A stretch of DNA of 64,000 bases from Hymenobacter gelipurpurascens (lineage in GTDB: Bacteria > Bacteroidota > Bacteroidia > Cytophagales > Hymenobacteraceae): assembly GCF_900187375.1 (NCBI RefSeq), contig NZ_FYEW01000001.1, positions 868,001 to 932,000 of the forward strand. The letters are read 5' to 3'. A program made the translations under genes and the position numbers. The notes beneath the pieces are model-generated. The model was not told where the DNA came from. It did no database searches and saw nothing but the letters and a program-made list of their open reading frames with translations. The stretch's first letter is position 1; the number at the start of each line of letters is the position of its first letter. Shown here piece by piece: positions 3-63,805 of this stretch.

Positions 3-539
3 TACGCGCGTTTCACCGGCGAGCTAGGCCTATCCGACTACGATGCCACCGTGCTGACGGCCGAGAAGGATGTAGCGCTCTACTTTGATGAGTTGACCCG
101 CCTCACGCCAAACGCCAAGGCCGCCGCCAACTGGGTAACGGGCCCGGTGAAAGCGTTTCTGAATGAGCGCGCCCTCACGCTGGACCAGTTCCCGCTCACG
201 CCCCAGCACCTAGCCGACATTATTGGGCTCATCGACGAGAACAAGGTAGGCCACTCGGTAGCCAGCAAGCAGCTGTTCCCGCATCTTCTGGAAAACCCCA
301 CGCAAACTGCCGCCGCCGCGGCCGAAGCGCAGGGCCTGTTGCAGCAGCCCCAGGATGCCGGCGCGCTGGAAGCCATGATTCAGCAAGTGCTGGATGCCAA
401 CCCCGCCAAAGTAGCCGAATACCGCGCCGGCAAAAAGTCGCTGACTGGAATGTTTATGGGTGAGCTGATGAAGCTCACCGGTGGCAAAGCTGACCCCAAG
501 ATGGCCAATCAGCTGCTGCGGCAAAAATTAGAGGCCTAG
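3..539 (+). CDS. gatB: Asp-tRNA(Asn)/Glu-tRNA(Gln) amidotransferase subunit B, C-terminal part (partial)
   Basis: The open frame runs in from the left edge, so the start is missing. The visible 178 residues match the end of GatB: the helical linker followed by the GatB/YqeY tail domain, with the pattern NPAKVAEYRAGKKSLTGMF and GELMKLTGGKADPKMANQLL typical of the tRNA-binding tail. GatB, with GatA and GatC, converts mischarged Glu-tRNA(Gln) or Asp-tRNA(Asn) to the amidated forms in the cytoplasm. The last codons read GAG GCC TAG inside the palindrome GGCCTAGGCC, so the stop codon is part of the window's repeated motif. Assignment is confident; only the 3' end is seen. Confidence 0.93.
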   Translation, partial: YARFTGELGLSDYDATVLTAEKDVALYFDELTRLTPNAKAAANWVTGPVKAFLNERALTLDQFPLTPQHLADIIGLIDENKVGHSVASKQLFPHLLENPTQTAAAAAEAQGLLQQPQDAGALEAMIQQVLDANPAKVAEYRAGKKSLTGMFMGELMKLTGGKADPKMANQLLRQKLEA

Positions 540-696
540 GCCACTAGCGTAGGATAGTTTACCTGAAACCACTGGCCCACGGCCGGTGGTTTTGTTGTTG
601 TAGGCCAGTCGGGTTGAGGCAGTTCTGCAACTCCACGTGTTTGTTATCTATTTCTGTTTTACCGCAAACTGGCCTACACCCAGCTCACTTTCTGCC

Positions 697-1209
697 ATGG
701 GCTATCTGTTACTTTATCTCTTGCCTTTGCTAGTGGCCGGCTGCCAGCGCCCAACCACTTCCGTAACGGCAGCTCCGGGTGCGCCCGCTGATTCTGTTAC
801 CACCGTCAATGCTGGCCTTCGAACGCCGGCAGGAAAGCACTTGCCGCTGAGTAGCCTGCGTGGAAAATATGTAGTGGTAGTGTTCTGGGCTTCCTGGAAT
901 GAGGCCAGCCGGCAGGAAAGCCCCAACCTGCGGAAAATATATCAGCAGTTTGGTAGCCGTGGCCTCGAAATCTATGGAGTATCGTTGGATACTGACCGTC
1001 GGGAGTGGGTGCGGGCAATACGGGCCGATGCGCTGGTTTGGCCCCAGGTAGCGGCCCTGAACTCCCTGAAAAACACCAGCTTAGAGGCCTACGGCATACC
1101 ATCAGTGCCCTATACTATGTTGCTGGATCCTGAGGGCCGCATCCTGGCCCGCAATCTGTATGGGCGCGCACTGGGGCAGAAAATCTCGGAATATATTCCC
1201 TTGGACTAA
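697..1209 (+). CDS. TlpA-like thioredoxin-fold lipoprotein lacking active-site cysteines
   Basis: About 170 residues from the ATG at 697, which gives a clean lipoprotein signal (hydrophobic run ending LLVAGC); the frame is open further upstream to 637 but that extension is not signal-like. The rest is an AhpC/TlpA thioredoxin fold: SLRGKYVVVVFWASW, then YGVSLDTDRREW and a retained cis-Pro region (IPSVPYTML). Where active relatives carry WCGPC, this protein has WNEAS: both cysteines are replaced, by Asn68 and Ser71. It should therefore lack thiol-disulfide activity. It sits just before a paralogue that keeps WCGPC, with closely similar sequence after the motif, so it is probably a diverged tandem duplicate acting by binding, or a decaying copy. 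Frame and codon use look intact. Confidence 0.8.
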   Translation: MGYLLLYLLPLLVAGCQRPTTSVTAAPGAPADSVTTVNAGLRTPAGKHLPLSSLRGKYVVVVFWASWNEASRQESPNLRKIYQQFGSRGLEIYGVSLDTDRREWVRAIRADALVWPQVAALNSLKNTSLEAYGIPSVPYTMLLDPEGRILARNLYGRALGQKISEYIPLD

Positions 1210-1400
1210 CCCTGGGCCAGGGCAGGAACCCAAGCGTGTAATGAAGTTGTAGTAAGTGTACACAAAGCAGGCGGTCAGGTACAGAATCTGGTCAGTTTCC
1301 GCTGAATACGCGGGAAAATGGCAACTTGCAACCTCAACCTCTGTCTATTGCCAAACGGTACGTCGGCCCGCAGCCGACGCGCACTCCGAAGATGCTAAAA

Positions 1401-3452: not shown

Positions 3453-3504
3453 AGCGCAGGCACAAAACAGCTAAGCAATACAGGAGGAAATAAGCCACCG
3501 TAGT

Positions 3505-3522
3505 GGCCTAGGCCTCTAGGCC
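3505..3522. repeat. GGCCTAGGCC palindrome plus adjoining CTAGGCC
   Basis: An exact GGCCTAGGCC at 3505-3514 is followed at 3516-3522 by another CTAGGCC. The second unit contains the TAG stop codon of the thioesterase gene on the minus strand. Confidence 0.9.
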
Positions 3523-6470: not shown

Positions 6471-6576
6471 GGCAGCCAGGTTCTAGGCCACTCCTCAATC
6501 ATTTTCTTTCCTGAGTTGTTTAAAGCGGCTAAGCATCTCTTCACGCTCGGCCTCAGCACCTCAAAAAATCAACCGC

Positions 6577-8150: not shown

Positions 8151-9109
8151 GAGGAAACAGGCGGAGCAACAACCCAGTCGACGCCCTTGCGCAGCCACTG
8201 TTGGGTGCTGGCTTCGGGCGAGCCGGGCTCGGGTTGTAGGTTATAGTGCCACTCGCACTGCGGCGGCAGGCTCATCAGAATGCTTTCGGTGCGGCCTCCG
8301 GTTTCCAGCCCGAAGCGCGTGCCCCGGTCGATGGCCAGATTGAACTCGGCGTACCGGCCTCGGCGCACCAGTTGCCACTGCTTCTCGCGCTCGGTGTAGG
8401 CCTGTTCGGCGTTCAGGCGCATCAGGTGCGTGTAGGTGCGGCCATATACTTCTCCCACGGCGCGCACAAAGGCAAACAGGCTGTCGGCGTCGCCATCTTT
8501 ACCAACCGTAAGGCGGTCGAAGAAAATGCCGCCCACACCACGGGTTTCTTGGCGGTGAGGAATGTAGAAGTACTCATCGGCCCACTGCTTAAAGCGCGGA
8601 TAGTAGGCGTCGTCGAACTGGGCGCAGACTTCGGCAATTTGCTCATGAAACCAACGGGCCTGCTCTTCGTCCACATAAATCGGGGTAAGGTCTAGGCCAC
8701 CTCCGAACCATGCTTCGCCGTTGCCGGCTTCGAAGTAGCGCACGTTCATATGCGAAATGGGGACGCGCGGGCTACGCGGGTGCTGCACCACCGATACGCC
8801 GGTAGCGAAATACGTAGGGTTGGGCATGAGCAGCACGCGGGCCGCCTGCTCGCTCATGGTGCCTTCTACGGCGGAGAAATTCACGCCGCCTTTCTCAATA
8901 ACAGTACCGCCCGTAAGTACGCGGCTGCGGCCCCCGCCGCCACCGTGGTGCTGCCAGGCATCTTCCTGGAACTGGCCTAGGCCATCGGCCGCCTCAATCT
9001 GCTGGCAGAGCCAATCCTGAAATTGGCGCATCCAGGCCTCTACGCTGGCGCGGAACGTAGGCGCGGCCGGAGCAGCTGTAGGGAATGTGGTAAGGTTGGG
9101 AGCGGACAT
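8147..9109 (-). CDS. hemF: Oxygen-dependent coproporphyrinogen III oxidase
   Basis: About 320 residues from the ATG at 9109 (an ATG at 9118 is possible). Family hallmarks are ED AWQHHGGGGGRSRVL with GGTVIEKGGVNFSAVEG, the HMNVRYFEAG segment, WFGGGLDLTPIYVDE, and GVGGIFFDRL, then RRGRYAEFNLAIDRGTRFGL and ESILMSLPP. The enzyme oxidatively decarboxylates coproporphyrinogen III to protoporphyrinogen IX using O2, so the host is aerobic. A TACCTTTG box lies about 100 bases upstream. The PAP2 gene begins within its stop codon. Confidence 0.95.
   Translation of the reverse strand: MSAPNLTTFPTAAPAAPTFRASVEAWMRQFQDWLCQQIEAADGLGQFQEDAWQHHGGGGGRSRVLTGGTVIEKGGVNFSAVEGTMSEQAARVLLMPNPTYFATGVSVVQHPRSPRVPISHMNVRYFEAGNGEAWFGGGLDLTPIYVDEEQARWFHEQIAEVCAQFDDAYYPRFKQWADEYFYIPHRQETRGVGGIFFDRLTVGKDGDADSLFAFVRAVGEVYGRTYTHLMRLNAEQAYTEREKQWQLVRRGRYAEFNLAIDRGTRFGLETGGRTESILMSLPPQCEWHYNLQPEPGSPEASTQQWLRKGVDWVVAPPVSS
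8974..8983. repeat. GGCCTAGGCC inside hemF
   Basis: An exact copy of the 10-bp palindrome lies within the N-terminal coding part of hemF, where it is read in frame without disrupting the protein. Confidence 0.9.
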
Positions 9110-9217: not shown

Positions 9218-9284
9218 AGGGTTTGGTGAGGTTTGGGAGAGAGTGGCCTAGAGTGGGGTAGTTGCTTTTAACCGCTAAACTCAA

Positions 9285-10097: not shown

Positions 10098-10625
10098 TTA
10101 AACCACCAGCTCCTTCCGCAACAGCAGTAGCTCCAACTCCTGCTTCGGAATACCAAAGCGTGTATCCCGCGGAAACTCCACAGTTTCGCCAGTGCGCCGG
10201 AAGCCGTGGCGCTCATACCAGGCCAGTAGTTCGTGGCGGACGGAAATGACGGTAATAAGTAAACCGGAGTGGCCTAGGCCTCTGGCATGGGATTCGGCAG
10301 CGGCCATCAGCTGCTTACCGATGCCGTAGGCTTGGTGGGCCGGCGAAACTGAGAGCATGCCCAAGTATAAATCCGGCGCTTGGGCTTTCAGATACGCGCT
10401 GCCCAGCAGCTGGCCTTCCGTAGTGCGGGCGAGCAGAAACGTGGCTCCGGAGGCCGTGAGCAGGTCATGGAGGTCGTCGGCATCGGTGCGCTGGCCGTCG
10501 AGCAGGTGGGCTTCGGTGGTCCAGCCCTGGCGGGACGAGTCGCCGCGGTAGGCGCTATTGATGAGGGCCACCATTTCCGGAATATCGGCTTCGGTGGCAG
10601 CAGTTATAGTGAGCGAAGAAAGCAT
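10098..10625 (-). CDS. GNAT-family N-acetyltransferase
   Basis: 175 residues with the GNAT fold: an N-terminal IPEMVALINSAYRGDS, the beta4 segment LYLGMLSVSPAHQAYGIGKQLM carrying the acetyl-CoA pyrophosphate loop (Q/R-x-x-G-x-G/A as AYGIGKQ), LLITVISVRHEL and the typical YERHGFRRTGE. The substrate is not predictable. A TACCTTCG-like box ends only a few bases before the ATG, so the mRNA may be nearly leaderless. An exact GGCCTAGGCC copy (10271-10280) lies inside the coding region. Confidence 0.88.
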   Translation of the reverse strand: MLSSLTITAATEADIPEMVALINSAYRGDSSRQGWTTEAHLLDGQRTDADDLHDLLTASGATFLLARTTEGQLLGSAYLKAQAPDLYLGMLSVSPAHQAYGIGKQLMAAAESHARGLGHSGLLITVISVRHELLAWYERHGFRRTGETVEFPRDTRFGIPKQELELLLLRKELVV

Positions 10626-10860
10626 GGCGCGAAGGTAAGCGGCGCACCGATGCGGCAGAAAAATTATGTGCTTCCGGCTAATCCGCTGCCGTAGCGCATA
10701 GGGCCTTGCAGCGCGAGAACAAGTGGCCTAGCGCCTCCTGCTGACGTGGGCAGAACGGTTGGGCTGCTGCAGATGCCGGGCTGATGGCAACTCTTGTTCT
10801 TTGTCGCGCCCACATTCCCTGCGGAACCCGTAATTTCGCCCCATCACCCATCCACCCCGC

Positions 10861-12966
10861 ATGTCAACCCAAACCACCCCGACGACGCTGGAAACTGAGT
10901 TTACTGCCCCGCTGCCCGCCCGCGCCATGCTGCAACGTGCTTACCGCCTCATGCGCACGGCCGCCGAGCTGGCTCGCTTATACGAAGAAAACAAGGCCGT
11001 AACGGCCAAATACGTGCACGCCACGGCCCGCGGCCACGAAGCCATTCAGCTGGCCGCCGCCTTCCACCTGCGCCCCACGGACTACGCCGCGCCTTACTAC
11101 CGCGACGATGCCATGCTGCTGGGCTTCGGCCTGGAGCCCTATGAGCTGATGCTCCAGCTCATGGCCAAGCGCGACGACCCATTTTCGGGTGGCCGCACGT
11201 ACTACAGCCATCCGTCGTTGCGGCGGGCTGGCTTCCCCGTCATTCCGCACCAAAGCTCCGCCACCGGCATGCAGGCCATTCCGGCTACCGGTATGGCCCA
11301 CGGCATCAAGTATCTGGAAGGCCAGGGAATATTGCCATCGGCGGATGAACAGCCGGTGGTGTTGTGCTCTATCGGCGACGGCGCCATGACGGAGGGCGAA
11401 GTGGCCGAGGCCCTGCAAATGGCTGTGCTGCATCAGCTGCCTATTATCTATCTGGTGCAGGACAACGACTGGGGTATCTCGGCTACGGGCCGCGAAATGC
11501 GCGCCATGGATGCCTACGAGTTTGCCGCCGGCTTTAAAGGCCTGCACCGGCTCCAGTTTGATGGGGCCGATTTTCTGGCCAGCCACGCCGGCATGGAAGA
11601 AGCTTTCGACTACGCCCGCCGCACGCGCGGCCCGGTGCTGGTGCATGCCAAATGCCCGCTGCTAGGCCACCATACCAGCGGGGTGCGCCGCGAGTGGTAC
11701 CGCGGCGACAACCTCGCCGAACATACCCTCAACGACCCGCTGCCGCGCTTTCATCAGCAACTGCTGGAGCTGGGCTACTCCGAAGAGGAACTGGAACAGC
11801 TAGGCCAGGAAGCCCGCGCTACCGTGGAGGCCGACTACCAGCGTGCCCTGGCTGCCCCCGCACCCGACCCGGCGACTTTCGCCGACCATGAGTTTGCTCC
11901 GCCTGCAGTTACAGCTGAAGCCGGAGAGCGTAGCCCCGCCGGTGCCGACAAGGCCCTGATGGTGGATGCCGCTCTGCACGCCGTAGACGATATTCTGCGA
12001 GAGTTTCCGGAGGCTCTGTTCTATGGCCAGGATGTGGGCGGCGAGCTGGGCGGCGTGTTCCGCGAGGCGGCGCTGCTGGCCAAAAAGTACGGCGACGCCC
12101 GCGTGTTCAATACCCCCATTCAGGAGGCCTACATTGTGGGCAGCACGGCCGGAATGAGTGCCGTGGGTGCCAAGGCCATCGTGGAGATTCAGTTTGCCGA
12201 TTACATCTGGCCCGGCCTCAACCAGCTGGTGGAGGAACTGAGCAAATCCTGCTACCTCTCCAACGGCAAGTTTCCGGTGCAAAGCCTGATTCGGGTGCCG
12301 GTAGGGGCCTACGGGGGCGGTGGGCCGTATCATTCGGGCTCCATTGAAAGCACGCTGCTGACCATTCGGGGCATTAAGGTGGTATACCCCAGCAATGCCG
12401 CCGACATGAAAGGCCTGCTGCGCGCCGCCTTCCTCGACCCCAACCCGGTGGTGCTCCTGGAGCACAAAGGCCTATACTGGAGCAAAGTACCCGGCACCGA
12501 AGACGCTAAAACCACCGAACCGGCGGCGGGCTACGTCATTCCGCTCGGTAAAGCGGCTATTGCGCAAGAAGCCGACCCCGAAAAGCTGCGCAACGGCGAA
12601 ACGTGCGTGGTCATCACCTACGGCATGGGGGTGCACTGGGCCAAAACCGCCAGCAAGCAGTTCCTAGGCCAGGTAGAAGTGCTTGACCTGCGCACCCTCA
12701 ACCCCCTAGACTACGACTCGGTAGAAGCTGCCGTGCGCCGCCACGGCAAGGCCTTAGTGCTCACCGAAGAGCCGCTGATGAACTCCTTCGCCGAAAGCCT
12801 GGCCGGCCGCATTCAGCGCACCTGCTTCCGCCAGCTTGATGCGCCTGTGTTCACACTCGGCGCCGCTAACCTACCCGCTATTGCACTGAATGTGGAGCTG
12901 GAAAAGCAAATGCTTCCCAGCGCCGAGAAGGTAGGCGTGGTCCTGGCCGAGCTACTGGCCTACTAG
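10861..12966 (+). CDS. 2-oxo acid dehydrogenase E1 component, fused alpha and beta subunits
   Basis: 701 residues formed of an E1 alpha domain (about 20-340) and an E1 beta domain (about 365-701), separate proteins in many bacteria but commonly fused in Bacteroidota. The alpha part has the thiamine diphosphate motif GDGAMTEGEVAEA (near residue 171) ending QDNDWGIS, and AKCPLLGHHTSG. The beta part begins LMVDAALHAVDDIL, with YGQDVGGELGGVF and RVPVGAYGGGGPYHSGSIE. It decarboxylates a 2-oxo acid and passes the acyl group to E2 lipoate; branched-chain 2-oxo acid is the commonest annotation, pyruvate is possible. No E2 or E3 gene adjoins it. Confidence 0.9.
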   Translation: MSTQTTPTTLETEFTAPLPARAMLQRAYRLMRTAAELARLYEENKAVTAKYVHATARGHEAIQLAAAFHLRPTDYAAPYYRDDAMLLGFGLEPYELMLQLMAKRDDPFSGGRTYYSHPSLRRAGFPVIPHQSSATGMQAIPATGMAHGIKYLEGQGILPSADEQPVVLCSIGDGAMTEGEVAEALQMAVLHQLPIIYLVQDNDWGISATGREMRAMDAYEFAAGFKGLHRLQFDGADFLASHAGMEEAFDYARRTRGPVLVHAKCPLLGHHTSGVRREWYRGDNLAEHTLNDPLPRFHQQLLELGYSEEELEQLGQEARATVEADYQRALAAPAPDPATFADHEFAPPAVTAEAGERSPAGADKALMVDAALHAVDDILREFPEALFYGQDVGGELGGVFREAALLAKKYGDARVFNTPIQEAYIVGSTAGMSAVGAKAIVEIQFADYIWPGLNQLVEELSKSCYLSNGKFPVQSLIRVPVGAYGGGGPYHSGSIESTLLTIRGIKVVYPSNAADMKGLLRAAFLDPNPVVLLEHKGLYWSKVPGTEDAKTTEPAAGYVIPLGKAAIAQEADPEKLRNGETCVVITYGMGVHWAKTASKQFLGQVEVLDLRTLNPLDYDSVEAAVRRHGKALVLTEEPLMNSFAESLAGRIQRTCFRQLDAPVFTLGAANLPAIALNVELEKQMLPSAEKVGVVLAELLAY

Positions 12967-13040: not shown

Positions 13041-15674
13041 TTAAAACGGGTACCCGATGCCTAGATTGAAAGCCGTCTGGTTTTCATTTAAGCTGATTTT
13101 TCGGATGGCCCACTTGTTACCCGGAGCGGTGGGATCATAGACTTTCGTGGCGACATCGAGGCGCAGAATCAGGAAGGTAAAATCGAATCGGAAACCAATG
13201 CCAGAACCCACCGCGAACTGCTTGTAAAACTGATTGAATTGGAACTGCGCTCCTGGCCTAGGATCATTTCGGATGCTCCAAACGTTGCCAAAATCAGTGA
13301 AAATAGCTCCTTTGATGAAGCTGTAAACAGGAAAGCGATACTCCACGTTGCCTTCCAGAATCAGCTCGCCCGGCTGTTCCAGGTCATAGTCGCGGATAGG
13401 CTGGCCGGTTTTCTCATCCAACCGCCGCGAACCATCACGGTTGAGCTTGTACTGCGTGTAAGAGCCCGTGCCCAGGCGGCGTGGCTTCCAGGCCCGGACA
13501 CTGGAACTGCCGCCTGCAAACAAGTATTTATCGTACGGAATCAGGGAAGAAGTTGCGTCACTGATGACGTTCCCGCCTTCGCGATTATCCTTTGTTACAA
13601 TGCGTGTAGTGCTGAGGGCTGTTGCTGCCCCGCCCGAAAGGCGGTACACGAAGTAGGAATCTGAAGTCAGCTTATGATACCGCCGGTAATCGACCGTGAA
13701 CTTTGCAAAATCATAGATTTTGAGGCGGTTAGCCTTGGGTTCGTCGCGGTAGTTGGTTAATGGTTCTTTCTGAAATAACCCGCGCGTTATTCCCCCAACT
13801 TCTGCAAAAAGGCGCAGATATTTGGCGTCACGCGTTTCGTTGAAATCATTGGAGTTATATAGGGATGTGGCGTTGAAGCTCGGGACATAGAGATTATCGA
13901 AACTCCGATAGAGCGGAGAGCCCTGGTTGATCAGCAGCCGCTGCAAATAGTTGGAGAAGGCCGTGTCAATCGTAGCCGTCCGGATAATACTGATGTCAAT
14001 AGGCGTAAGAACGTATTGATGGTAGGGGGTGCGCTGCCAGATGTAGTCGAAAGTGCCCTCCGCGTTTGTGCGTGAATATTCGGGCCGATTTACATAGGTG
14101 TAGGTGGCGTTGAAGCGGGTGCGCGGGTTGTATTGGGATAAGAACCGATTGGGGCGCCATGGCACTAAAAACTGAGGTAGCACGAGGTTGACGTTGCCAC
14201 CCAACTGCGTGGTAAGAACGCTTTTCGGTACACCATCTACCTGGCCTACGGCGCTAAACTGCCCCTCAATACCAGCCCGTACACCAAATTCCAGCACCTC
14301 TGCGCCGCCAAACACATTGCGCACTTTGAGCCTTACATTACCAAAAGGCCCCACTTGCTGCGCTACCACCGTTCCCCCAAATTCGACTGTCTCCTGGTAT
14401 TTCTTGGCTGGTGATGCATTGATGGTAGCATCCAGTAGGCCACTGGTGGAGTCGGTAGGGGCCTCTTCGCCGCGCACCCGCCGGTACGTGACGGTGCTGA
14501 AGCGGAACATATCCAGGTTGGAGAGCTGGCGCTGGGTGAGCTGGGTGTTCTGGAGGCTATAGGGCTCACCGGGCCGCACGGCCAGCTTATTATCGAGGGT
14601 GCGGGTACTGAACTTGTGCTGGTAGGCCAGGTAGTTTACCCCATTGCGCACCAGCGTATCGCGCTGCTGCCCGAAGCGCACCAGGCCCGCGTCGGTCAGG
14701 AAATTTACCCGCCGAACGGTGTAGAGGCGGTGGTGCTCGCCGCGCGTTGGTTTGCTGACGATGGTGCGCAGCCGCACCGTGGTAGGGGCAAAGCTGGTAT
14801 CGGCCTCCAGGGTGATATACTGTGACCTGAAATCATAGAAACCTTGGTTTTTGAGCAGGTCTTCAATCCGACCGCGCTCATTGCCGATGGTTTCCTCATC
14901 ATATTGGTCGCCGACGTGCAGCAGGCTTTGGGGCAAGCTCAGCAGCACCCGCCGGGCCACGGCGGTGTCCTGAATATCGTAGTCGAGCTGGCTGTAGTGG
15001 AAGGGCTCGTTTTCCTGTACGCGGTACACCACCGTGACGCGGCGCGGCTCCGTGTGGAAAGGACTGCGCAGCGTGAATATCCGGAAGGGCGAAAACAGCT
15101 TGGTAGGTACTATATCCGTAGCGGAAACGCCACTACGGAAAAACCCCTTCGACTTGAGAAAGGTCTCCATCTGGCCTACACTGGCCCTGGTAAGAGCCGA
15201 GTCGTAGATGACGGGCGCCTCCCCGAGGCGCATAATGGCGTTGCCCTTGTCCAGCGCCAGCTGGTGCCGCCGCACGTGCCGGTCGCGCTTGGTCAGCAGC
15301 TTGCCCACTTTAACGGAGTCGGTGCCGGCGGCCTGAATGAGCTGGGTGTAGTGGGTGCGGTCTTCCTCGAGTTTGCGCTGCAGCTTTTCTGGGTTATAGA
15401 ATTTACGGCCTAGCTGATAGATTGCTAGCTTTGGCAGCGGAAACGTGCTGTTGGGCTTTTGCTGCGTGAGAGCCTGCAGGCGTTCCGGGTCGGCTTTATC
15501 AAGGCCTTCCACCTTCACGCGGCTGAGCAGGCGCTGGCCTGGCTGAAGCAGGCGCAGCGGCGAACAGCCCGCTAGGCCACTCAGCAGCAGCAGTCCACCC
15601 AAGGCAGACCGCGTTTTCTTTCCCGAAAAAAGCCCCGTAGTGGGGGCCTCGTTAAGCAGTGAATATGGTTTCAA
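13041..15674 (-). CDS. BamA/TamA-family outer-membrane lipoprotein
   Basis: 877 residues from a TTG at 15674. The N-terminus KKTRSALGGLLLLSGLAGC is a lipoprotein signal, which favours this start although it overlaps the divergent gene. POTRA-like repeats fill about residues 45-450 (for example VYRVQENEPFHYSQLDYDIQ), and the C-terminal half is a beta-barrel ending in a terminal strand (AFNLGIGYPF) with a KYLFAGGSSSVRAWKPRRLG segment like the conserved loop-6 R-G region. Members insert or translocate outer-membrane proteins or lipids; this lipidated, TamA-like form is common in Bacteroidota. It may be envelope biogenesis machinery paralogous to BamA. Confidence 0.85.
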   Translation of the reverse strand: MKPYSLLNEAPTTGLFSGKKTRSALGGLLLLSGLAGCSPLRLLQPGQRLLSRVKVEGLDKADPERLQALTQQKPNSTFPLPKLAIYQLGRKFYNPEKLQRKLEEDRTHYTQLIQAAGTDSVKVGKLLTKRDRHVRRHQLALDKGNAIMRLGEAPVIYDSALTRASVGQMETFLKSKGFFRSGVSATDIVPTKLFSPFRIFTLRSPFHTEPRRVTVVYRVQENEPFHYSQLDYDIQDTAVARRVLLSLPQSLLHVGDQYDEETIGNERGRIEDLLKNQGFYDFRSQYITLEADTSFAPTTVRLRTIVSKPTRGEHHRLYTVRRVNFLTDAGLVRFGQQRDTLVRNGVNYLAYQHKFSTRTLDNKLAVRPGEPYSLQNTQLTQRQLSNLDMFRFSTVTYRRVRGEEAPTDSTSGLLDATINASPAKKYQETVEFGGTVVAQQVGPFGNVRLKVRNVFGGAEVLEFGVRAGIEGQFSAVGQVDGVPKSVLTTQLGGNVNLVLPQFLVPWRPNRFLSQYNPRTRFNATYTYVNRPEYSRTNAEGTFDYIWQRTPYHQYVLTPIDISIIRTATIDTAFSNYLQRLLINQGSPLYRSFDNLYVPSFNATSLYNSNDFNETRDAKYLRLFAEVGGITRGLFQKEPLTNYRDEPKANRLKIYDFAKFTVDYRRYHKLTSDSYFVYRLSGGAATALSTTRIVTKDNREGGNVISDATSSLIPYDKYLFAGGSSSVRAWKPRRLGTGSYTQYKLNRDGSRRLDEKTGQPIRDYDLEQPGELILEGNVEYRFPVYSFIKGAIFTDFGNVWSIRNDPRPGAQFQFNQFYKQFAVGSGIGFRFDFTFLILRLDVATKVYDPTAPGNKWAIRKISLNENQTAFNLGIGYPF

Positions 15675-16411: not shown

Positions 16412-16458
16412 AGCAGTGGCCTAGAGATGGTACAGGCTGCCAGTAACACAACCGCCGG

Positions 16459-31009: not shown

Positions 31010-31014
31010 TCAGG

Positions 31015-32712: not shown

Positions 32713-32726
32713 CCTTCATTCCGACT

Positions 32727-41017: not shown

Positions 41018-41095
41018 GCCACTCGGCGGCGGCAGATTCTGGCGGTCGTCCCTTCTTTATTATGACTTTACTTTTCCACAACGCAATTTTTCTGA

Positions 41096-43579: not shown

Positions 43580-43589
43580 GGCCTAGGCC
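43580..43589. repeat. GGCCTAGGCC at the flavin reductase stop
   Basis: Exact palindrome containing the TAG stop codon of the flavin reductase gene (minus strand CTG GCC TAG GCC). Confidence 0.9.
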
Positions 43590-48164: not shown

Positions 48165-48172
48165 AAAGTGGC

Positions 48173-48756: not shown

Positions 48757-48766
48757 GGCCTAGGCC
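48757..48766. repeat. GGCCTAGGCC in the HD gene leader
   Basis: Exact palindrome 15 bases before the ATG, probably within the mRNA leader. Confidence 0.9.
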
Positions 48767-48781
48767 ACTGCTTTATAATGT

Positions 48782-49447
48782 ATGTCTGACGCATCCCAAC
48801 TGATTACCCAAACGGCCGACTTTGTTCGGGATAAATTTCTACATGAAGGCTCCGGCCACGACTGGGCCCACATCCGGCGGGTGTGGCACGTAGCCCGAGC
48901 GCTGGCCCAGCAAACGCCCCATGCCGATGTGCTCGTGACGGAGCTCGGTGCTTTGCTGCACGATGTAGCCGACTGGAAGTTTCACGACGGAGACGAAGAG
49001 GCCGGCCCTCGGGCGGCGCGCACCTGGCTGGAAAGCCAAGGGGCCAATGAAGCCGTGATTCAGCGTGTAGAAGCCATCATTCGCGAAATCAGTTTTAAAG
49101 GGCTAGGGGTAGCCACGCCCATGAGCACTGTAGAAGGAGAACTGGTGCAGGACGCCGACCGCCTCGATGCCATTGGCGCCATTGGCGTAGCGCGGGCCTT
49201 TGCCTACGGTGGCCACAAAGGGCGCCCCTTGCACGACCCTGAAGTAGCGCCCATCGAGCACGCATCCTTTGAGAGCTATAAGCAAAACACGGCGCCCACC
49301 ATCAACCACTTCTACGAGAAGCTGCTGCATCTGCGGGAGCGGCTGAATACGCCCGCCGCCCGCCGGGTGGCCGAGGAGCGTCACCAGTTTATGGAGCAGT
49401 TTCTGGAACAGTTCCTGCGGGAGTGGGACAGCCAGGATGTGGCCTAG
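48782..49447 (+). CDS. HD-domain phosphohydrolase
   Basis: 221 residues. The HD motif is present: GSGHDWAHIRRVWHVAR (H then HD) with GALLHDVADWKFHDG and later LVQDADRLDAIGAIGVARAF, the metal-binding pattern. Such proteins hydrolyse phosphoesters of nucleotides; specificity is not known, and YedJ-type is possible by length and by the DWKFHDG segment. The last codons are GTG GCC TAG in GTGGCCTAGGCCAC, so the stop is in the repeated palindrome. Confidence 0.92.
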   Translation: MSDASQLITQTADFVRDKFLHEGSGHDWAHIRRVWHVARALAQQTPHADVLVTELGALLHDVADWKFHDGDEEAGPRAARTWLESQGANEAVIQRVEAIIREISFKGLGVATPMSTVEGELVQDADRLDAIGAIGVARAFAYGGHKGRPLHDPEVAPIEHASFESYKQNTAPTINHFYEKLLHLRERLNTPAARRVAEERHQFMEQFLEQFLREWDSQDVA

Positions 49448-49452
49448 GCCAC
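49439..49452. repeat. 14-bp palindrome GTGGCCTAGGCCAC over the HD stop
   Basis: Extended exact copy containing the stop codon of the HD gene. Confidence 0.92.
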
Positions 49453-49549
49453 TTCGAGTATTCCCCAACTCCTGTAGGCCACTTCCCAGACTTCAACCTG
49501 AGGCTGTTCAATGGTGGGTCAGCTTCGCAGAACTCAATATCTTAGCCGC

Positions 49550-49789: not shown

Positions 49790-49918
49790 AGGGTGGAAAG
49801 ATGGCGCTCAATTAGGTAAAACGGGCTTTTTTGCCTATCTTGCTGGCTTAAAGAAGTACACTCTCACGGGCTGAAAATCTCCGTTTTACACGGGGCTCTA
49901 GGCCACTTAGTTCTCCCT

Positions 49919-52495
49919 ATGGCGGAAGGCGAAAAGATCATTCCGATAAACATTGAAGATGAGATGCGCGGAGCCTACATCGACTACTCGATGTCGGTCA
50001 TCATCTCCCGGGCTCTGCCGGATGTGCGCGACGGTCTGAAACCCGTGCACCGGCGCGTGCTGTATGGCATGAGCGAGCTAGGCGTTTCCTACAACAAATC
50101 CTATAAAAAGAGCGCCCGTATTGTGGGGGAGGTGCTCGGTAAATATCACCCCCACGGCGACTCCTCCGTGTACGACACGATGGTGCGCATGGCCCAGGAC
50201 TGGAGCCTACGCTACCCGCTCGTAGACGGCCAAGGTAACTTCGGTAGCATCGACGGCGACTCGCCGGCTGCTATGCGCTACACCGAAGCCCGCCTCAAGC
50301 GCCTCGCCGACGAAATGCTCGGCGACCTGGACAAAGACACGGTTGACTTCCAGCCTAACTTCGACGACTCCCTGGAGGAGCCATCTGTTATGCCGGCCAA
50401 GTTTCCGAACCTGTTGGTAAACGGCACCACCGGTATTGCCGTGGGTATGGCCACCAACATGGCGCCCCACAACCTAACGGAAGTGGTAAACGGCATCATT
50501 GCCTACCTCGGCAACGAGGACATTACCGTGGCGGAGTTGATGGAGCACGTAACAGCTCCCGACTTCCCAACGGGCGGTATCATCTACGGTTACGATGGTG
50601 TAAAGCAGGCCTTCGAAACCGGCCGTGGCCGCGTGGTGATGAGGGCGAAAGCCCACTTCGAAACGTTGCCTTCCGGTAAAGAGCAGATCATCGTGACCGA
50701 GATTCCCTACATGGTGAACAAGGCCTCCATGATCGAGAAGACGGCTGCCCTCATCAACGAGAAGAAGATTGAAGGCATTGCGGACTTGCGCGACGAGTCG
50801 GACCGCGACGGTATGCGCGTGGTCTATGACCTGAAGCGTGATGCCATGCCGACGGTGGTACTCAACAACCTGTATAAGTACACCCAACTGCAATCCTCTT
50901 TCGGTGTCAACAATGTGTGCCTGGTGAAAGGCCGCCCGATGACGCTGAACTTGAAGGAGCTGATTGTCTACTTCGTGGAGCACCGCGCCGATGTTATCGT
51001 GCGTCGGACCCGCTACGAATTAGCCGAAGCCCAGAAGCGTGCCCACATCCTGGAAGGCCTTCTGATTGCCCTCGACCACCTGGATGAGGTAATTGCTCTG
51101 ATCCGTGGTTCCCGTGACCCCGAGGTGGCGCGCGGCCAGCTGATCGAGCGATTCTCCCTGAGCGAAGTGCAGGCCCGGGCTATCCTGGACATGCGTCTGC
51201 AGCGTCTGACTGGCCTAGAGCGCGACAAAATTGTGGCGGAGTATGATGAGCTGATGAAGCTGATCGACCACCTGAAGGCGGTACTGGCGTCGGATGAGTT
51301 GCAGCGGCAGATTATCCGCGACGAGCTACAAGAAATCAAGGACCGCTACGGCGATGAACGTCGGACGTCTATTGAGTACGCCGGTGGCGACTTCTCGATG
51401 GAGGATATGATTGCCGATGAGAGCATGGTAATTACCATCTCCAGCGAAGGCTATATCAAGCGCACTGCCCTGGACGAGTACCGGGCCCAAGGCCGCGGTG
51501 GTGTGGGGGCCCGGGGGGCTACCTCAAAGCAGGATGACTTCACGGAGCACCTGTTTGTGGCCACTACCCACGAATACCTGCTGTTCTTCACCGAAGCCGG
51601 CCGCGTGTTCTGGCTGAAAGTATACGAAGTGCCAGAAGGAGGGAAGGCTACCAAAGGCCGCCCCATTCAGAACCTGATTGAGATTCCTCGCGAGGATAAT
51701 GTACGCTCCGTGCTCAACGTACGTGGCCTACGCGACCCCGATTACCTGGAGAATACCTTCCTGATGTTCTGCACCGAGCAAGGCACCGTGAAGAAGACTC
51801 CGCTGGAGGCTTACTCACGCCCACGCACGGCTGGCATCAACGCCATTACCATCAACGAAGGCGACCGTCTGCTCGATGTGCAGTTGACTACTGGTTCTTC
51901 GGAAGTGGTAGTAGCCTTGCGTTCGGGTCGGGCAGTTCGCTTCCCCGAGGAGAAGGTTCGCTCCATGGGCCGCACGGCCGCTGGTGTTCGTGGCATCACG
52001 CTCACCGACGAAACCGACCGTGTGGTTGGTATGGTGTGCATTGATAACGACAGCCAGCAGGAACTGCTTGTGGTATCCGAGAATGGTTACGGCAAGCGCA
52101 GCCCGCTGGATGAGTACCGCATCACCAACCGCGGCGGTAAAGGGGTTCGGGCCATGAAGATCACCGATAAGACGGGGCAGCTGGTAACCATCAAGGCGGT
52201 TACTGACTCCGACGATCTGATGATCATCAACAAGTCTGGTATCACGATTCGCCTCCGGATGGCTGACCTCCGCAGCATTGGCCGCGCCACGCAAGGTGTG
52301 CGCCTGCTGAAAATCAGCCAGGGTGATGAAATTTCCTCCGTAGCAAAAGTGGCGGCGGAAGAAGAGAAAGAGGCTGAACTGGTAGAGGAAAACGGTCTGA
52401 CTCTGGGCGGGGACCCGAACGGAGAAGGCGGTGTGCCTACGCCAGACGCTGACCTAACGTCGCTCACTGATCCTGATTCGCTCAGCGCTAATTAA
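49919..52495 (+). CDS. gyrA: DNA gyrase subunit A
   Basis: 858 residues, full length. The N-terminal cleavage domain has [32 protein letters not shown], the QRTS-like [14 protein letters not shown] with catalytic Tyr121, and the coiled coil about residues 360-495; the C-terminal part has six beta-pinwheel blades, among them [25 protein letters not shown] and [21 protein letters not shown]. With GyrB it supercoils DNA. A 200-bp stretch of this gene (residues about 428-494) is repeated at 54384-54583. It ends with an acidic tail. It precedes a TPR gene by 86 bases. Confidence 0.97.
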
Positions 52496-53799: not shown

Positions 53800-55084
53800 A
53801 TTTTCAAAACATTACTTAACATAATATAAATTATAAGACAAATGGAATTGGGTTAATATAGGTATAGATCTAGCCTTTATAGGTAATGTATCAATGCCGT
53901 AATTATCCTTTGGCATCAGTAGTTCACAATACGATTAAAGGACTCGCAGTAATGGATGTTTAAAGAGGTTTGCTGGGCTCTGCATCACCCGTTAATCGCA
54001 TACTCTGAATCCACTACAGGTAGCCTGCACACGCCGTGTTAGAAATAACTCGTGGCCCGCGGCATCAGTGTGGTTGCGCTCTGGCGCCGAGGGTATCTAC
54101 GCGCTTACTACGTTGCCCCCGTACAACGCCATTCGGTGCAGCGAGTGTTTTTAGCTGCATCAAGCAGTTTTGGTGCGTGATTAAGTACCTATGGCATGTT
54201 GAATATTTTTTTTTTGCCGTTGCCTTAATTTAGTTGGCGGTAGCTGTCTATCATACTAGGCCTAGCCCGCCAGCACGTGTTATAATGATGAGCTTCTGAA
54301 GTTGCAACATATAGCAAAGTGCTTCAGAGAATTCATAGGTAGTTTTCATTAGTCACAGCTGTAGCGAGTTGAACGATGTAGCAAGCGTCTGACTGGCCTA
54401 GAGCGCGACAAAATTGTGGCGGAGTATGATGAGCTGATGAAGCTGATCGACCATCTGAAGGCGGTACTGGCGTCGGATGAACTGCAGCGGCAGATCATCC
54501 GCGACGAGCTCCAGGAAATCAAGGACCGCTACGGCGATAAACGTTGGACGTCGATTGAGTATGCCGGTGGCGACTTCTCGATGATAGTACTTAAACTCTG
54601 CTGTAAATAACTAGGGTGAGTTAAAAGCTTGTACTATAATAGAGTCAAGCTCTACTCCTACTGAGCTTATTCACTTAATGAAGCTACTAGTAGAATTTCA
54701 TAAGAAATAAGGTAAAATGAATTAGGTGCTGTATTAACGCACTAGCCTGTTTGTAAGCCAATAGGTTAATTATTGAACTCTTGACGTCTGTAGAAACAGA
54801 TCGTTCAAATAAGGGATCCAAATAGGGCCAGAACCGCTCCTCTCCCGCTGACCGTGCCAGCGGCCAGATGTATAAAGAGGGTATTAAAATTATATTGTTA
54901 ATGGTAAGGTCAGTTAAGATGATAGAGATAATATATTAAGGTAAAAAAAAGTACAAAAAGGTAAGAAAATAGGGCTTTTTTATGCTTTGCACTACTACTT
55001 TATACTAAAAAATTTTAATTTACTTCATTATCTTTAGTGCTGAATCCCCCTTTATTACTCTCTCAATTTTCATCAACCATACAT
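53800..55084. other. AT-rich 1.3-kb tract with no intact gene
   Basis: Much lower GC than the rest of the window, with scattered short frames that lack coding character. A GC-rich islet at about 54040-54150 and the gyrA fragment at 54384-54583 look like inserted debris. The last 300 bases upstream of 55085 are very AT-rich. The tract separates the gyrA/TPR block from the atypical gene at 55085 and looks like a site of past insertion or loss. Confidence 0.6.
54384..54583 (+). pseudogene. gyrA: 200-bp duplicate of part of gyrA
   Basis: This stretch matches gyrA 51201-51400 without gaps; I count 10 differences in 200 bases. Eight are silent in the gyrA frame and two change residues (E to K, R to W, in GDKRWTS versus GDERRTS). 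The frame stays open into 54610. It encodes only the tip side of the GyrA coiled coil (about residues 428-494), so it cannot be a gyrase. Orientation is the same as gyrA, 3183 bases away. The mainly silent differences suggest that it came from a diverged functional gyrA rather than from a fresh copy of this one. Confidence 0.92.
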
Positions 55085-59058: not shown

Positions 59059-59065
59059 ATTCCGT

Positions 59066-59124: not shown

Positions 59125-60099
59125 ATGGCATCCATTCTGGTTACCGGCTGCGCGGGCTTCATTGGCTCGCACCTTGCCGAACGGCTGCTCCACGAGGGGC
59201 ACCGCGTGGTAGGCCTGGATAATTTTGATCCGTTCTACAACCGTACCCTCAAGCAAACCAACCTGGCTCAGTGCCTGGCCCACCCGCACTTCAGCTTCCA
59301 CGAAGCCGACCTGCGCCACGGCCTCGATGCGCTAGTAGACGCATTGCCCGCCGACCACATCGATCTGGTGGTGCATCTGGCCGCAAAGGCGGGCGTGGGC
59401 CCCTCCGTGCGCCAACCAGTGGCCTACCTGGAAAACAACGTCATTGGGACCACCTATCTGCTGGAGTGGATGCGCCAGCGCGATATTCAGAAGCTGTTTT
59501 TTGCCTCTTCCTCTTCCGTGTACGGCAATACCAAAGAGCAGCCCTTCCGCGAAGACCTCAATCTGCAGGCGACGTGCATTTCTCCCTATGCGGCCTCTAA
59601 GCTGGCCGGGGAGCAGCTCACCTACACCTACCACCACCTATACGGCCTTGATGTTCTCAATGCCCGGTTTTTCACGGTGTATGGCCCCCGGCAGCGCCCC
59701 GACCTGGCCATTCATAAGTTTGTGCGCCTGCTCCGGGCTGGCCAGCCAATTCCGGTCTTTGGCGACGGCAGCACCGCCCGCGACTACACTTTTGTGCTGG
59801 ATACGGTAGAGGGCATCACCCGCGGAGTACAGTACCTGCTGCACAATACAGGGGTATATGAAACCCTGAACCTGGGTAACAACCGCCCGGTGCCGCTGCT
59901 AGAGCTGATTGCAGCTATAGGCGACGCCGTAGGCCACTCTCCTGAGCTGCAGTTTCAGCCGATGCAGGCCGGCGATGTAGACATCACCTTTGCCGATATT
60001 CAGAAGGCCCAGCACCTGCTCGGGTACGCCCCCCAAACGTCGCTACAGGATGGCCTAGGCCAGTTTGTGGAATGGCTGGATAAGCAGGAGCCCGAATAG
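59125..60099 (+). CDS. NAD-dependent nucleotide-sugar epimerase (UDP-glucuronate 4-epimerase-like)
   Basis: 324 residues from ATG at 59125. The extended SDR fold has SILVTGCAGFIGSHLAERLL (GxxGxxG), the LDNFDPFYNRTLKQTNLA segment typical of glucuronate epimerases, FASSSSVYG, and the catalytic SPYAASKLAGEQL (YxxxK), followed by YGPRQRPDLAIHKFVRLL and GDVDITFADIQKAQHLLGY. It probably interconverts UDP-glucuronate and UDP-galacturonate for envelope glycans. A motif copy occurs near the 3' end, and the open frame upstream is not coding. Confidence 0.9.
   Translation: MASILVTGCAGFIGSHLAERLLHEGHRVVGLDNFDPFYNRTLKQTNLAQCLAHPHFSFHEADLRHGLDALVDALPADHIDLVVHLAAKAGVGPSVRQPVAYLENNVIGTTYLLEWMRQRDIQKLFFASSSSVYGNTKEQPFREDLNLQATCISPYAASKLAGEQLTYTYHHLYGLDVLNARFFTVYGPRQRPDLAIHKFVRLLRAGQPIPVFGDGSTARDYTFVLDTVEGITRGVQYLLHNTGVYETLNLGNNRPVPLLELIAAIGDAVGHSPELQFQPMQAGDVDITFADIQKAQHLLGYAPQTSLQDGLGQFVEWLDKQEPE
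60052..60061. repeat. GGCCTAGGCC near the epimerase 3' end
   Basis: Exact palindrome inside the coding region, read as part of DGLGQFVEW. Confidence 0.9.
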
Positions 60100-61915: not shown

Positions 61916-62188
61916 GGGTCGACATAAAAATATTACGTCACACTAAGCCATTATTTGTATAAAAATCACAAATAGTTGCATATAAACAAACAGACGAGCT
62001 ACTTTACTTCAGAATTTTCTACCGTTTGTAACAAACACAAGGTGTTGTAAATGAATGAAATCCGTCTCACAACTGGACTAGGCCAGTCTAATCGACACCA
62101 AGGCCTGCCTTCAAAACCGACAGCACCCCGGCAGAAGTTGTCTACCGGGCCGCTGTTAACTGGTTTAATTTAGAAAAGCTGAAGGAAC

Positions 62189-62845
62189 TTACGCCACAGG
62201 CACTTGGCCCGTGTGCTGGCGGGCCTGCTCGCGGCGCAGCAGCACAATATTGCGGGTGTACACCACCATACCGGGCACGTTGCCCAGAATCAGCACTTCA
62301 TCGCGGCGCAGAATGGCGTAAATCAACACCAGAAAGGAACCCACCAGGCTCACTACCCAGAAGCCCAGCGGCAGCACCGACTCGCCCTTGCGCTCCGAAT
62401 ACAGCCACTGGTACACAAAGCGCAGCAGGAACACTACCTGGCCTAGGGCGCCCAGCACCAGCCAGCCCCCCGGAATGGGCGTGTGCAGCATGCGCTGGAA
62501 GCTAAAGTTGGGCGTGCCCACAAAAAACAGCACCAGTGTAGCCAGCGGAAACGCATACGCCGCGGCCCGAAACCAGGCATTAAGCTTGTTCCACTCACCC
62601 AGCAGCTGCAGGTTCCGGATGTAGATACCGTAGCTGATGAGTTGGGCGCCCAGAATAACGGGGTCGTGGCGCAGGATGCCGTAGATGATCATCAGGAAGG
62701 ATGATATCAGGCTGATCTGCCAGAACAGCGCCGGCACCAGCACCTGCTTGGCCCGCTCGCTTTTGATCCATTGTAGGATGATACGGCTGCTAAACAGGCC
62801 CTGCGACAACAGGCCAATAAACCGGGCAACGAGTTCGGTGCTCAT
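62189..62845 (-). CDS. Lipid-A-disaccharide synthase N-terminal (LAB_N) protein, two copies of the domain
   Basis: 218 residues with six hydrophobic segments. Two repeats of the LAB_N unit are visible: GLLSQGLFSSRIILQWIKSERA and LGQVVFLLRFVYQWLYSERKGE start the two halves, each followed by PxxFWxxSLxxSFLxxIYxILRxDPV-type sequence. It lacks the LpxB catalytic domain. Its role is unknown, but it sits next to a GT2 glycosyltransferase gene, an arrangement I would expect for polyprenyl-linked sugar flipping or transfer. The two genes are 12 bases apart, so they form an operon. Confidence 0.9.
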   Translation of the reverse strand: MSTELVARFIGLLSQGLFSSRIILQWIKSERAKQVLVPALFWQISLISSFLMIIYGILRHDPVILGAQLISYGIYIRNLQLLGEWNKLNAWFRAAAYAFPLATLVLFFVGTPNFSFQRMLHTPIPGGWLVLGALGQVVFLLRFVYQWLYSERKGESVLPLGFWVVSLVGSFLVLIYAILRRDEVLILGNVPGMVVYTRNIVLLRREQARQHTGQVPVA

Positions 62846-62857
62846 ACTGCAGGTGGC

Positions 62858-63616
62858 CTAGCCGTGCGCAGCCGCGCCGCGCTGCTGCTCTCCGATTTCG
62901 TAGTTCTTCCAGCGGCTCCGGATCCAGCGGAAACCGAAGGTATCGACCAGGGGCTTCCAGGCCCGGTTCCAGAGGTTGTATTTGGCCGTGCCGGCAAAGC
63001 GTGGGAAGTGCTGCACGGGCATTTGGTGCACTTTACCGCCCTGCAGCTGCACCAGCGCCCCCAGGAAGCGGTGCATGCCATGAAACAGCGGAATCCGGCG
63101 CGCATACTCGATCTTCATGATCTTCAGCGGGCAGCCCGTATCCTGAATACCGTCGTTGATGAGGGTGCGGCGCACCGTATTGGCAATCTTGGAAGAAAGC
63201 TTCTTCACAATAGTATCCTGGCGCTTGGCCCGGATACCGTTCACCATATCGTACTGCGGGAAGAACTCGAAGAACTTCAGGAAGTCCAGCGGCGAGGTCT
63301 GAATATCGGAGTCGATGTAGCCCAGCAGCGTGGTGCGGCAGTGGTCGATGCCCGCTTTTATGGCCGTGCTCAGGCCCCGGTTCTGACTCAGGCTGATGAA
63401 CTCGTAGCGGGAGTCCTGGCGGCAGATGTCGCGCAGAATAGCCAGTGAGCCATCGGTAGAGCCATCATTCACGAACAAAACGGTGGTTGTTACCGGCGTC
63501 TGGTCCAGAAATTTGTTCATCTCTACGGCAAACTGCTGCAGGCTTTCTTCTTCATTATACACTGGTACAAGTACCGTGAGACTTTGCGTGGCCAGGTAAG
63601 CAGCGGTAGAGGGCAT
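62858..63616 (-). CDS. Family 2 glycosyltransferase (polyprenyl-phosphate sugar transferase type)
   Basis: 252 residues from ATG at 63616, with the GT2 pattern QSLTVLVPVYNEEESLQQF, VLFVNDGSTDGSLAILRD (DGSxD), FISLSQNRGLSTAIKAGI, LLGYIDSDIQTSPLDF, MVNGIRAKRQDTIVKK and DTGCPLKIM. It has no obvious C-terminal membrane helix pair, unlike ArnC; it probably glycosylates a polyprenyl phosphate as donor for GT39 enzymes such as the one at 56273. The stop TAG is in GGCTAGGCCACC, a motif half-site. It is upstream of the LAB_N gene. Confidence 0.9.
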   Translation of the reverse strand: MPSTAAYLATQSLTVLVPVYNEEESLQQFAVEMNKFLDQTPVTTTVLFVNDGSTDGSLAILRDICRQDSRYEFISLSQNRGLSTAIKAGIDHCRTTLLGYIDSDIQTSPLDFLKFFEFFPQYDMVNGIRAKRQDTIVKKLSSKIANTVRRTLINDGIQDTGCPLKIMKIEYARRIPLFHGMHRFLGALVQLQGGKVHQMPVQHFPRFAGTAKYNLWNRAWKPLVDTFGFRWIRSRWKNYEIGEQQRGAAAHG

Positions 63617-63805
63617 AAAAACGGAGGGGCGTAAATAGAGGCGCAAGGTAGGCAAGGTTTCCTCAGCAAAAAGACGAGCCTAGGCCACCTCGGTAGCATT
63701 TGCGCTATCTAACTGCCAATTATCTGAATGGGTTTTTCTTCTCAGATAAAATCACCCGGTTATATGCTGGCCGTTAGGCTCAGTGAGTAGAGAGCAAAAC
63801 AAGAG

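Follow-up and report, generated by a model that had tools for sequence, protein, structure and literature searches.

There is no settled answer to why some bacteria repeat a single short word throughout their DNA, and the cause of the highly iterated palindrome HIP1 is itself still a model. The question is raised here by a 64,000-nucleotide stretch of Hymenobacter gelipurpurascens DNA (G000:C1:868001-932000, referred to throughout as the window, in the 5.06-Mb genome G000), along which the palindrome GGCCTAGGCC recurs far beyond chance. CTAG, on which this palindrome is centred, is a rare tetranucleotide in most bacteria, and its accumulation is striking in itself. Examined across a genus set of 120 genomes, what is repeated is an asymmetric 10-mer, ASTGGCCTAS, iterated throughout the genomes of one clade of four species, and its cause is tentatively sought in a protein that recognises the sequence and takes part in repair or recombination.

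An asymmetric unit beneath the palindrome

The window holds 13 exact copies of GGCCTAGGCC, the first at 533 and the last at 60052, against 0.15 expected from dinucleotide shuffles, none of 100 of which reached 13. An earlier note on this DNA had counted the same 13 copies and placed the chance expectation below one, and its estimate of about 75 loci for the 7-bp core was also close: GGCCTAG/CTAGGCC gives 91 oriented matches against 14 expected, which fall into 76 separate loci when counted from the match list. The single full-length extended form that it reported, AGTGGCCTAGGCCACT, lies at 27869-27884.

The palindrome itself, which the earlier note took for the iterated unit, did not keep that standing. 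In the window and in a 464-kb sample (400 kb of G000 contig 1 and the window), the profile around the core is alike, with mostly A, then S, then T (less often A), a fixed GGCCTA and a final S, and the letters beyond this 10-mer are near random. In the 464 kb, GCC follows only 116 of 559 oriented GGCCTAG, and 33 unit pairs overlap at a five-base offset. The iterated unit is the asymmetric 10-mer ASTGGCCTAS, with the core SWGGCCTAS, and the GGCCTAGGCC palindrome is two such units overlapping at CTAG. The unit occurs at about 0.8 per kb with both strands counted, and its core 744 times in oriented form in the 464 kb.

Against an order-3 Markov expectation in the same sample, AGTGGCCTAG is found 124 times (1.2 expected), ACTGGCCTAG 107 times (1.3 expected) and GGCCTAGGCC 116 times as oriented matches (3.9 expected). 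The count against models of order 5 to 7 that the earlier note proposed gives no information either way: the expectation for GGCCTAGGCC rises to 82, 122 and 124 at orders 5, 6 and 7, since from order 5 upward the model already holds the enriched hexamers and heptamers. The 13 palindromes and 54 units of the window are listed below.

533-542, unstranded: palindrome GGCCTAGGCC, exact match
3505-3514, unstranded: palindrome GGCCTAGGCC, exact match
8974-8983, unstranded: palindrome GGCCTAGGCC, exact match
10271-10280, unstranded: palindrome GGCCTAGGCC, exact match
18117-18126, unstranded: palindrome GGCCTAGGCC, two overlapping units, exact match
27042-27051, unstranded: palindrome GGCCTAGGCC, exact match
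27872-27881, unstranded: palindrome GGCCTAGGCC within the full 16-mer AGTGGCCTAGGCCACT (27869-27884), exact match
30998-31007, unstranded: palindrome GGCCTAGGCC, exact match
32727-32736, unstranded: palindrome GGCCTAGGCC, exact match
43580-43589, unstranded: palindrome GGCCTAGGCC, exact match
48757-48766, unstranded: palindrome GGCCTAGGCC, exact match
49441-49450, unstranded: palindrome GGCCTAGGCC, exact match
60052-60061, unstranded: palindrome GGCCTAGGCC, exact match
246-255, minus: unit ASTGGCCTAS
536-545, minus: unit ASTGGCCTAS
600-609, minus: unit ASTGGCCTAS
668-677, plus: unit ASTGGCCTAS
2539-2548, plus: unit ASTGGCCTAS
3502-3511, plus: unit ASTGGCCTAS
6483-6492, minus: unit ASTGGCCTAS
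8971-8980, plus: unit ASTGGCCTAS
9242-9251, plus: unit ASTGGCCTAS
10268-10277, plus: unit ASTGGCCTAS
10722-10731, plus: unit ASTGGCCTAS
12954-12963, plus: unit ASTGGCCTAS
14435-14444, minus: unit ASTGGCCTAS
15572-15581, minus: unit ASTGGCCTAS
16415-16424, plus: unit ASTGGCCTAS
18114-18123, plus: unit ASTGGCCTAS
18120-18129, minus: unit ASTGGCCTAS
18330-18339, minus: unit ASTGGCCTAS
19976-19985, plus: unit ASTGGCCTAS
20660-20669, minus: unit ASTGGCCTAS
21725-21734, plus: unit ASTGGCCTAS
21924-21933, minus: unit ASTGGCCTAS
22326-22335, plus: unit ASTGGCCTAS
24719-24728, minus: unit ASTGGCCTAS
25049-25058, plus: unit ASTGGCCTAS
25388-25397, plus: unit ASTGGCCTAS
27039-27048, plus: unit ASTGGCCTAS
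27844-27853, plus: unit ASTGGCCTAS
27869-27878, plus: unit ASTGGCCTAS
27875-27884, minus: unit ASTGGCCTAS
29446-29455, minus: unit ASTGGCCTAS
31001-31010, minus: unit ASTGGCCTAS
31146-31155, minus: unit ASTGGCCTAS
32489-32498, plus: unit ASTGGCCTAS
32724-32733, plus: unit ASTGGCCTAS
34785-34794, minus: unit ASTGGCCTAS
35270-35279, plus: unit ASTGGCCTAS
36575-36584, plus: unit ASTGGCCTAS
40244-40253, plus: unit ASTGGCCTAS
41014-41023, minus: unit ASTGGCCTAS
42069-42078, plus: unit ASTGGCCTAS
42181-42190, plus: unit ASTGGCCTAS
42494-42503, plus: unit ASTGGCCTAS
48167-48176, plus: unit ASTGGCCTAS
48760-48769, minus: unit ASTGGCCTAS
49444-49453, minus: unit ASTGGCCTAS
49474-49483, minus: unit ASTGGCCTAS
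49898-49907, minus: unit ASTGGCCTAS
51209-51218, plus: unit ASTGGCCTAS
54392-54401, plus: unit ASTGGCCTAS
59418-59427, plus: unit ASTGGCCTAS
59929-59938, minus: unit ASTGGCCTAS
60055-60064, minus: unit ASTGGCCTAS
62078-62087, minus: unit ASTGGCCTAS

Distribution, placement and retention

The earlier note staked its claim on an excess reaching beyond the window, and it does: GGCCTAGGCC occurs 608 times genome-wide in G000, against 12 for a reversed-letter control. It exceeds 100 in five of the 120 genomes (462 in G024, 443 in G119, 248 in G111 and 105 in G054, besides G000), stands at 17-46 in seven and at 12 or fewer in 108. ASTGGCCTAS is found 4,028 times in G000 (reversed control, 23), 3,506 in G024, 3,339 in G119 and 2,302 in G111, with at most 119 copies in each of the other 116 Hymenobacter genomes. 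The fifth genome rich in the palindrome, G054, was rejected as a carrier of the clade word, which is at background there (87); it holds a different dialect. In a GyrA tree of 51 rows (midpoint root for drawing only; the fetched stretches of G019, G345 and G375 hold no GyrA), G000, G024, G119 and G111 form one group with support of 100/98. As in HIPs, the word lies far above composition across the whole genome. Contig starts vary, with 14, 18 and 0 copies of ASTGGCCTAS in the first 20 kb of G000 contigs 2-4 and 11, 1, 6 and 0 in those of G119 contigs 1-4; starts in G024 also vary.

A scan of the GTDB collection for the 16-mer, in which short contigs fall outside the collection and records near the window may be omitted, gave 49 stretches, of which 19 are from H. 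fodinae, 18 from H. wooponensis, one from H. crusticola and 11 are singles elsewhere. A spread over all bacteria was rejected. Phage carriers were also set aside, as the 14-mer in 38 scattered viral stretches, with three copies in one of them, looks like chance.

The word is scarce in a prophage, which is regarded as DNA of recent acquisition. This prophage lies at G000:C1:736224-781000, nine of its ten scanned proteins match PHROGs families, and it carries genes for portal, large terminase, tape measure and endolysin along with a PAPS-reductase-like gene and a helicase-methyltransferase fusion. ASTGGCCTAS is nine-fold rarer there, with four copies in 44.8 kb (0.09 per kb) against 288 in 346 kb elsewhere (0.83 per kb), the 346 kb being drawn from the 400-kb stretch, with 781-790 kb left out of both and the window not counted.

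On gene calls from a simple in-house caller, ASTGGCCTAS has a density of 1.74 per kb between genes and 0.48 per kb within them, and SWGGCCTAS 2.62 and 1.34 per kb. In gaps under 400 bp, STGGCCTAS occurs at 6.6 per kb between convergent, 4.1 between tandem and 2.9 between divergent genes. In the 345 genes called, oriented SWGGCCTAS runs across a TAG stop 46 times, with possible double counting of palindromic sites. A stop-codon effect was rejected: TAG stops make up 33-56% of long open reading frames in nine genus samples from outside the clade, so TAG usage is not caused by the word. Of the placements given in the earlier note, gaps, genes and stop codons do hold sites; terminators were set aside, as close inverted unit pairs are few (eight between genes, 9-30 bp apart, and 16 pairs of any orientation in the 464 kb); this count is limited to pairs, without a terminator scan.

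The comparison at aligned loci that the earlier note proposed shows the word to be preferentially retained inside the clade and not outside. Alignments were made between the window and G111 (52.7 kb, 78.6% identity), G119, G024, G043 and G098, and permutations of the SWGGCCTAS core served as the control; only ungapped aligned sites were scored, and 14, 8, 7, 8 and 3 sites, respectively, were set aside for alignment gaps. SWGGCCTAS of G000 is kept at 33 of 81 sites in G111 (permuted cores, 182 of 816), at 19 of 38 in G119 (86 of 409) and at 14 of 28 in G024 (64 of 313), although a few single permutations, with small numbers, reach the same level. Outside the clade the relation is reversed, with 2 of 33 kept in G043 (83 of 486 permuted) and 2 of 22 in G098 (74 of 339). 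Inside the clade, retention thus exceeds that of the permutations by a factor of about two, and outside it falls below them, so that most of the sites are peculiar to the clade. A mobile repeat of the repetitive extragenic palindrome or miniature inverted-repeat transposable element kind was rejected, as flanks are not conserved and ungapped aligned sites differ between genomes by base substitution; 14 of 95 sites against G111, in gapped alignment, were not judged.

Near misses of the word are close to background. The 464 kb hold 346 perfect ASTGGCCTAS against 0.8 scaled from 13 non-clade genomes, while its 20 one-step core variants together number 122 against 91. The other clade members are similar: perfect words and variants number 46 (0.2 scaled) and 28 (19.6) in G111, 29 and 23 (15.7) in G119, and 27 and 24 (15.7) in G024; variants without the leading A in G000 number 606 against 770. 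Against five other genomes, some with other dialects, the 346 ASTGGCCTAS compare with 5.8, and 80 ASAGGCCTAS with none.

Other words in other lineages

Dialects were sought in a first set of genomes, chosen for middling GGCCTAGGCC counts, and in a second set of 20, chosen by known contig positions and neither random nor word-chosen, at 40 kb each, where weak words may escape. G054 iterates CCCTAGGG (75 oriented, 2.9 expected), G083, from the second set, iterates GGCTAGCC (56 against 5.3), G070 and G086 iterate MCCTAGGK, and G019 and G105 iterate ACCTAGGT; the units CCCTAGGG, ACCTAGGT and GGCTAGCC are palindromic. CCTACCCC is iterated more weakly in G069 and G026 and is weak in G002 and G081 of the second set, and G047, also of that set, has a possible iterated word in GGGGCCCC (52 oriented against 10.6 expected); these weaker words lack CTAG. 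CCTACCCC and CTACCCCC are asymmetric, stand at about 6-10 times the order-3 expectation in several species and have CCTA in common. In G043, of the middling-palindrome set, no comparable iterated word was found, nor was anything comparable seen in the 40 kb from each of the remaining 16 of the 20 genomes, G029 being marginal for CTACCCCC. Two further words, TCGCGCA and CATTGCC, are mildly elevated in the majority of the 20 genomes and are taken as putative codon effects.

Over the 120 genomes CCTAGG is most frequent in G070 (8,806), G086 (8,591), G054 (7,530), G013 (5,949), G019 (5,749) and G105 (5,585); the window's clade has 1,209-2,331 and all other genus genomes have 888 or fewer. Among 390 genomes of the order, only G345 (5,325) and G375 (5,678) exceed 2,000 outside the genus; these belong to one sister genus, of which four members were sampled, both iterate ACCTAGGG-type words, and the next counts, 1,349 and 1,138, come from another family. 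A AATGAGCAAT-type 10-mer, perhaps a local tandem or dispersed repeat, also occurs nine times in 40 kb of G345.

G054, G083, G070 and G086, which hold three different CTAG words, form one GyrA group (99/90). CCTAGG is kept between G070 and G086 at 55 of 73 sites, against 132 of 272 for other palindromic hexamers with four GC (GTGCAC, at 12 of 16, equals it), and between G019 and G105 at 10 of 19 against 54 of 129. Aligned sites of G054, G070 and G083 indicate that replacement of one dialect by another in place is rare at best. CCTAGG of G054 is kept in G083 at none of 24 sites, and at 33 aligned match positions of G054 CCCTAGG (some sites counted twice) G083 has CTAG in three and GCTAGC in none; of 26 aligned G070 CCTAGG, two are GCTAGC in G083, and at 21 and 10 aligned GGCTAGCC sites of G083, CCTAGG is found in none of G054 and G070, respectively. 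No clear intergenic excess like that of ASTGGCCTAS is seen for the CTAG words of these other lineages.

Two side observations were made in these counts. GGATCC is nearly missing from many genus members, at 0-10 copies, while others have 100-300, which fits avoidance or restriction in some, and a repeat of more than 70 copies at G098:C1:1025001-1085000, probably a CRISPR array, dominates k-mer counts there.

Candidate causes and known systems

The reading favoured here, if tentatively and somewhat short of probable, is a HIP-like drive in which a protein with sequence specificity acts during repair or recombination. A clade-specific DNA-binding or nicking protein would recognise the exact word and, at a mismatch inside it during repair or homologous recombination, would decide which strand or allele survives, with the word-bearing copy winning. 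Words would then accumulate by single substitutions up to about one per kb, decayed copies would be restored, and shifts in the specificity of the protein would yield the other CTAG-centred words of related lineages. Such a drive would need neither a DNA methyltransferase nor a type IV pilus. Three observations led to this preference: the sites are not evenly spaced, there is no marked excess of one-step variants, and lineages differ wholesale in their words.

Several points weigh against this drive. The higher intergenic density could be explained by looser constraint, and equally by function, and ASTGGCCTAS is slightly clustered in the largest segment tested for spacing (its clustering equals or exceeds that of 98% of random placements). 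Site and non-site pairs one base apart are transitions in 25 of 33 cases against a background of 49-53%, in a small sample pooled over four comparisons that share sites. The prophage is only five-fold poorer in SWGGCCTAS (15 in 44.8 kb against 606 in 346 kb). G119 and G024 match some of the four methyltransferase families considered below, and families beyond these (for example Eco57I, PF07669) lay outside the search. Lastly, we infer both the drive and its protein, for which there is no candidate.

The strongest rival, itself rather unlikely, is a DNA uptake sequence (DUS), in which a receptor reads ASTGGCCTAS, the cell's own DNA is preferentially imported and recombination enriches the word, the other CTAG words being dialects. 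Neisseriaceae DUS are given as 2,245-3,603 copies for two dialects, with a CTG core conserved across eight (Frye 2013, PMC3630211). The Hymenobacter words resemble these and the uptake signal sequences (USS) of Pasteurellaceae (PMC2346458, PMC1939737) in their thousands of copies of one 10-mer, within the 9-12-mer range of such signals, in dialects sharing a fixed core, and in sharp specificity; one of these sources also lists GCCTAGGC, absent from one studied genome against 151 expected, among palindromes of unknown effect (PMC1939737). A sharp asymmetric 10-mer at DUS-like copy number, the CTAG common to the words of several lineages, the presence of CCCTAGGG, GGCTAGCC and MCCTAGGK in one GyrA group, and the poverty of the prophage all suit uptake. 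ComEC is present in 14 of 14 genomes, but equally in those without the word. Unlike known DUS and USS, close inverted pairs are few (eight intergenic among 744 oriented SWGGCCTAS) and other lineages' words are palindromic; 116 of 120 genus members also lack the iteration of ASTGGCCTAS. Furthermore, the PilB/PilT/GspE-type ATPase PF00437 was matched in none of 28 genomes, whereas control genomes gave signal in 14 of 14 cases, 13 over the cut-off, so that an uptake route of the Neisseria type would here be without its motor. The uptake role suggested in the earlier note may still apply, though without the type IV pilus motor that normally serves it, and so may its biased repair and nucleoid-protein site. 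A search of the open-licence literature, judged by titles and abstract openings, gave no account of competence in Hymenobacter.

It is doubtful that an abundant protein, one that organises the chromosome or regulates genes, binds the words and that selection maintains the bound state. Conservation inside the clade and the higher density between genes, greatest between convergent ones, suit this reading. Against this, spacing more even than random was not found in the three segments tested, there is no strong strand bias (188 forward and 158 reverse ASTGGCCTAS in the 464 kb, counted without reference to replication arm), the word lies inside codons and over stop codons, and aligned loci of two related lineages, those of G054 and G083, show wholesale differences in word. 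The word is Chi-like in being short, frequent and poor in prophage; unlike Chi, it shows no strong strand bias in the 464-kb sample, has palindromic relatives, is more strongly enriched and is denser between genes.

The classic HIP model, which couples an orphan DNA methyltransferase acting on the word, or on its CTAG/GGCC core, to methylation-directed mismatch repair, appears improbable, for all that the phenomenon itself is HIP-like. HIP1, first described in 1995 (via PMC4390886), and the alternate HIPs reach around 500-2,500 per Mb, and some HIP1 genomes lack the methyltransferase (Elhai 2015, PMC4390886). The cyanobacterial words described there are likewise genome-wide, GC-rich and patchy in occurrence, in a density range like the 0.5-1.5 per kb seen here; in both cases related species have sporadic alternates, several of which keep one tetranucleotide fixed, GATC in HIPs and CTAG in Hymenobacter. 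The likeness in style to HIP1 drawn by the earlier note therefore holds for density, genome-wide spread and lineage-specific alternates. Unlike HIP1, the word belongs to Bacteroidota and the clade unit is asymmetric.

The methyltransferases also set the two apart. Over the genus, PF00145 is matched in 45 of 120 genomes, PF01555 in 72, PF02086 in 21, and PF02384 in 21 of 24 searched. In G111, a single 4.88-Mb contig rated 100% complete with its 2,302 copies, none of these four families is matched, other methyltransferase families not having been searched. G000 has no PF00145 or PF02086 match, a single PF01555 match, which falls within the prophage, and one PF02384 match, a weak one (22.5 bits, on a 4.5-kb contig). 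G024 has one PF00145 and three PF02384 matches; G119 has one PF02384 match and four stretches matching PF00145, which lie at two places; both genomes are without PF01555 or PF02086. None of the four families is common to all four species, and thus, within the families searched, a HIP model tied to a methyltransferase does not fit; methyltransferase drive was rejected on this ground, leaving the methyltransferase site of the earlier note unsupported.

Mutation bias or composition alone, such as unrepaired deamination of CCAG to CTAG, is very improbable: a C-to-T or G-to-A change separates many aligned sites and transitions prevail among single-difference pairs, but eight of the 33 are transversions, so that no single mutation type makes the site, the 10-bp context stands at about 100 times the order-3 expectation, A-flanked near misses are not depleted, and no C5 methyltransferase (PF00145) is matched in G000 or G111.

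No report of such words in Hymenobacter was found in the open-licence literature, judged mainly by titles and abstract openings, and the text of Elhai (2015; PMC4390886) has no mention of Hymenobacter, Bacteroidetes or CTAG. A phenomenon of the HIP kind is now seen in another phylum, where it occurs patchily in a single genus and a sister genus and takes the form of several words built on a constant CTAG; a complete genome without a match to four large DNA-methyltransferase families sets it apart from the usual methylases. The Hymenobacteraceae may, on a reading held with less than even confidence, harbour a new class of self-spreading signature, in which CTAG words are written base by base by a recognition protein without methylation or pilus; shifts in the specificity of this writer between lineages would give the dialects ASTGGCCTAG, CCCTAGGG, MCCTAGGK, ACCTAGGT and GGCTAGCC. 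The cause becomes mappable, as a gene coming and going with the word. If the reading is true, these lineages would offer a natural series of gains and replacements, and the writer gene would be findable by genome comparison.

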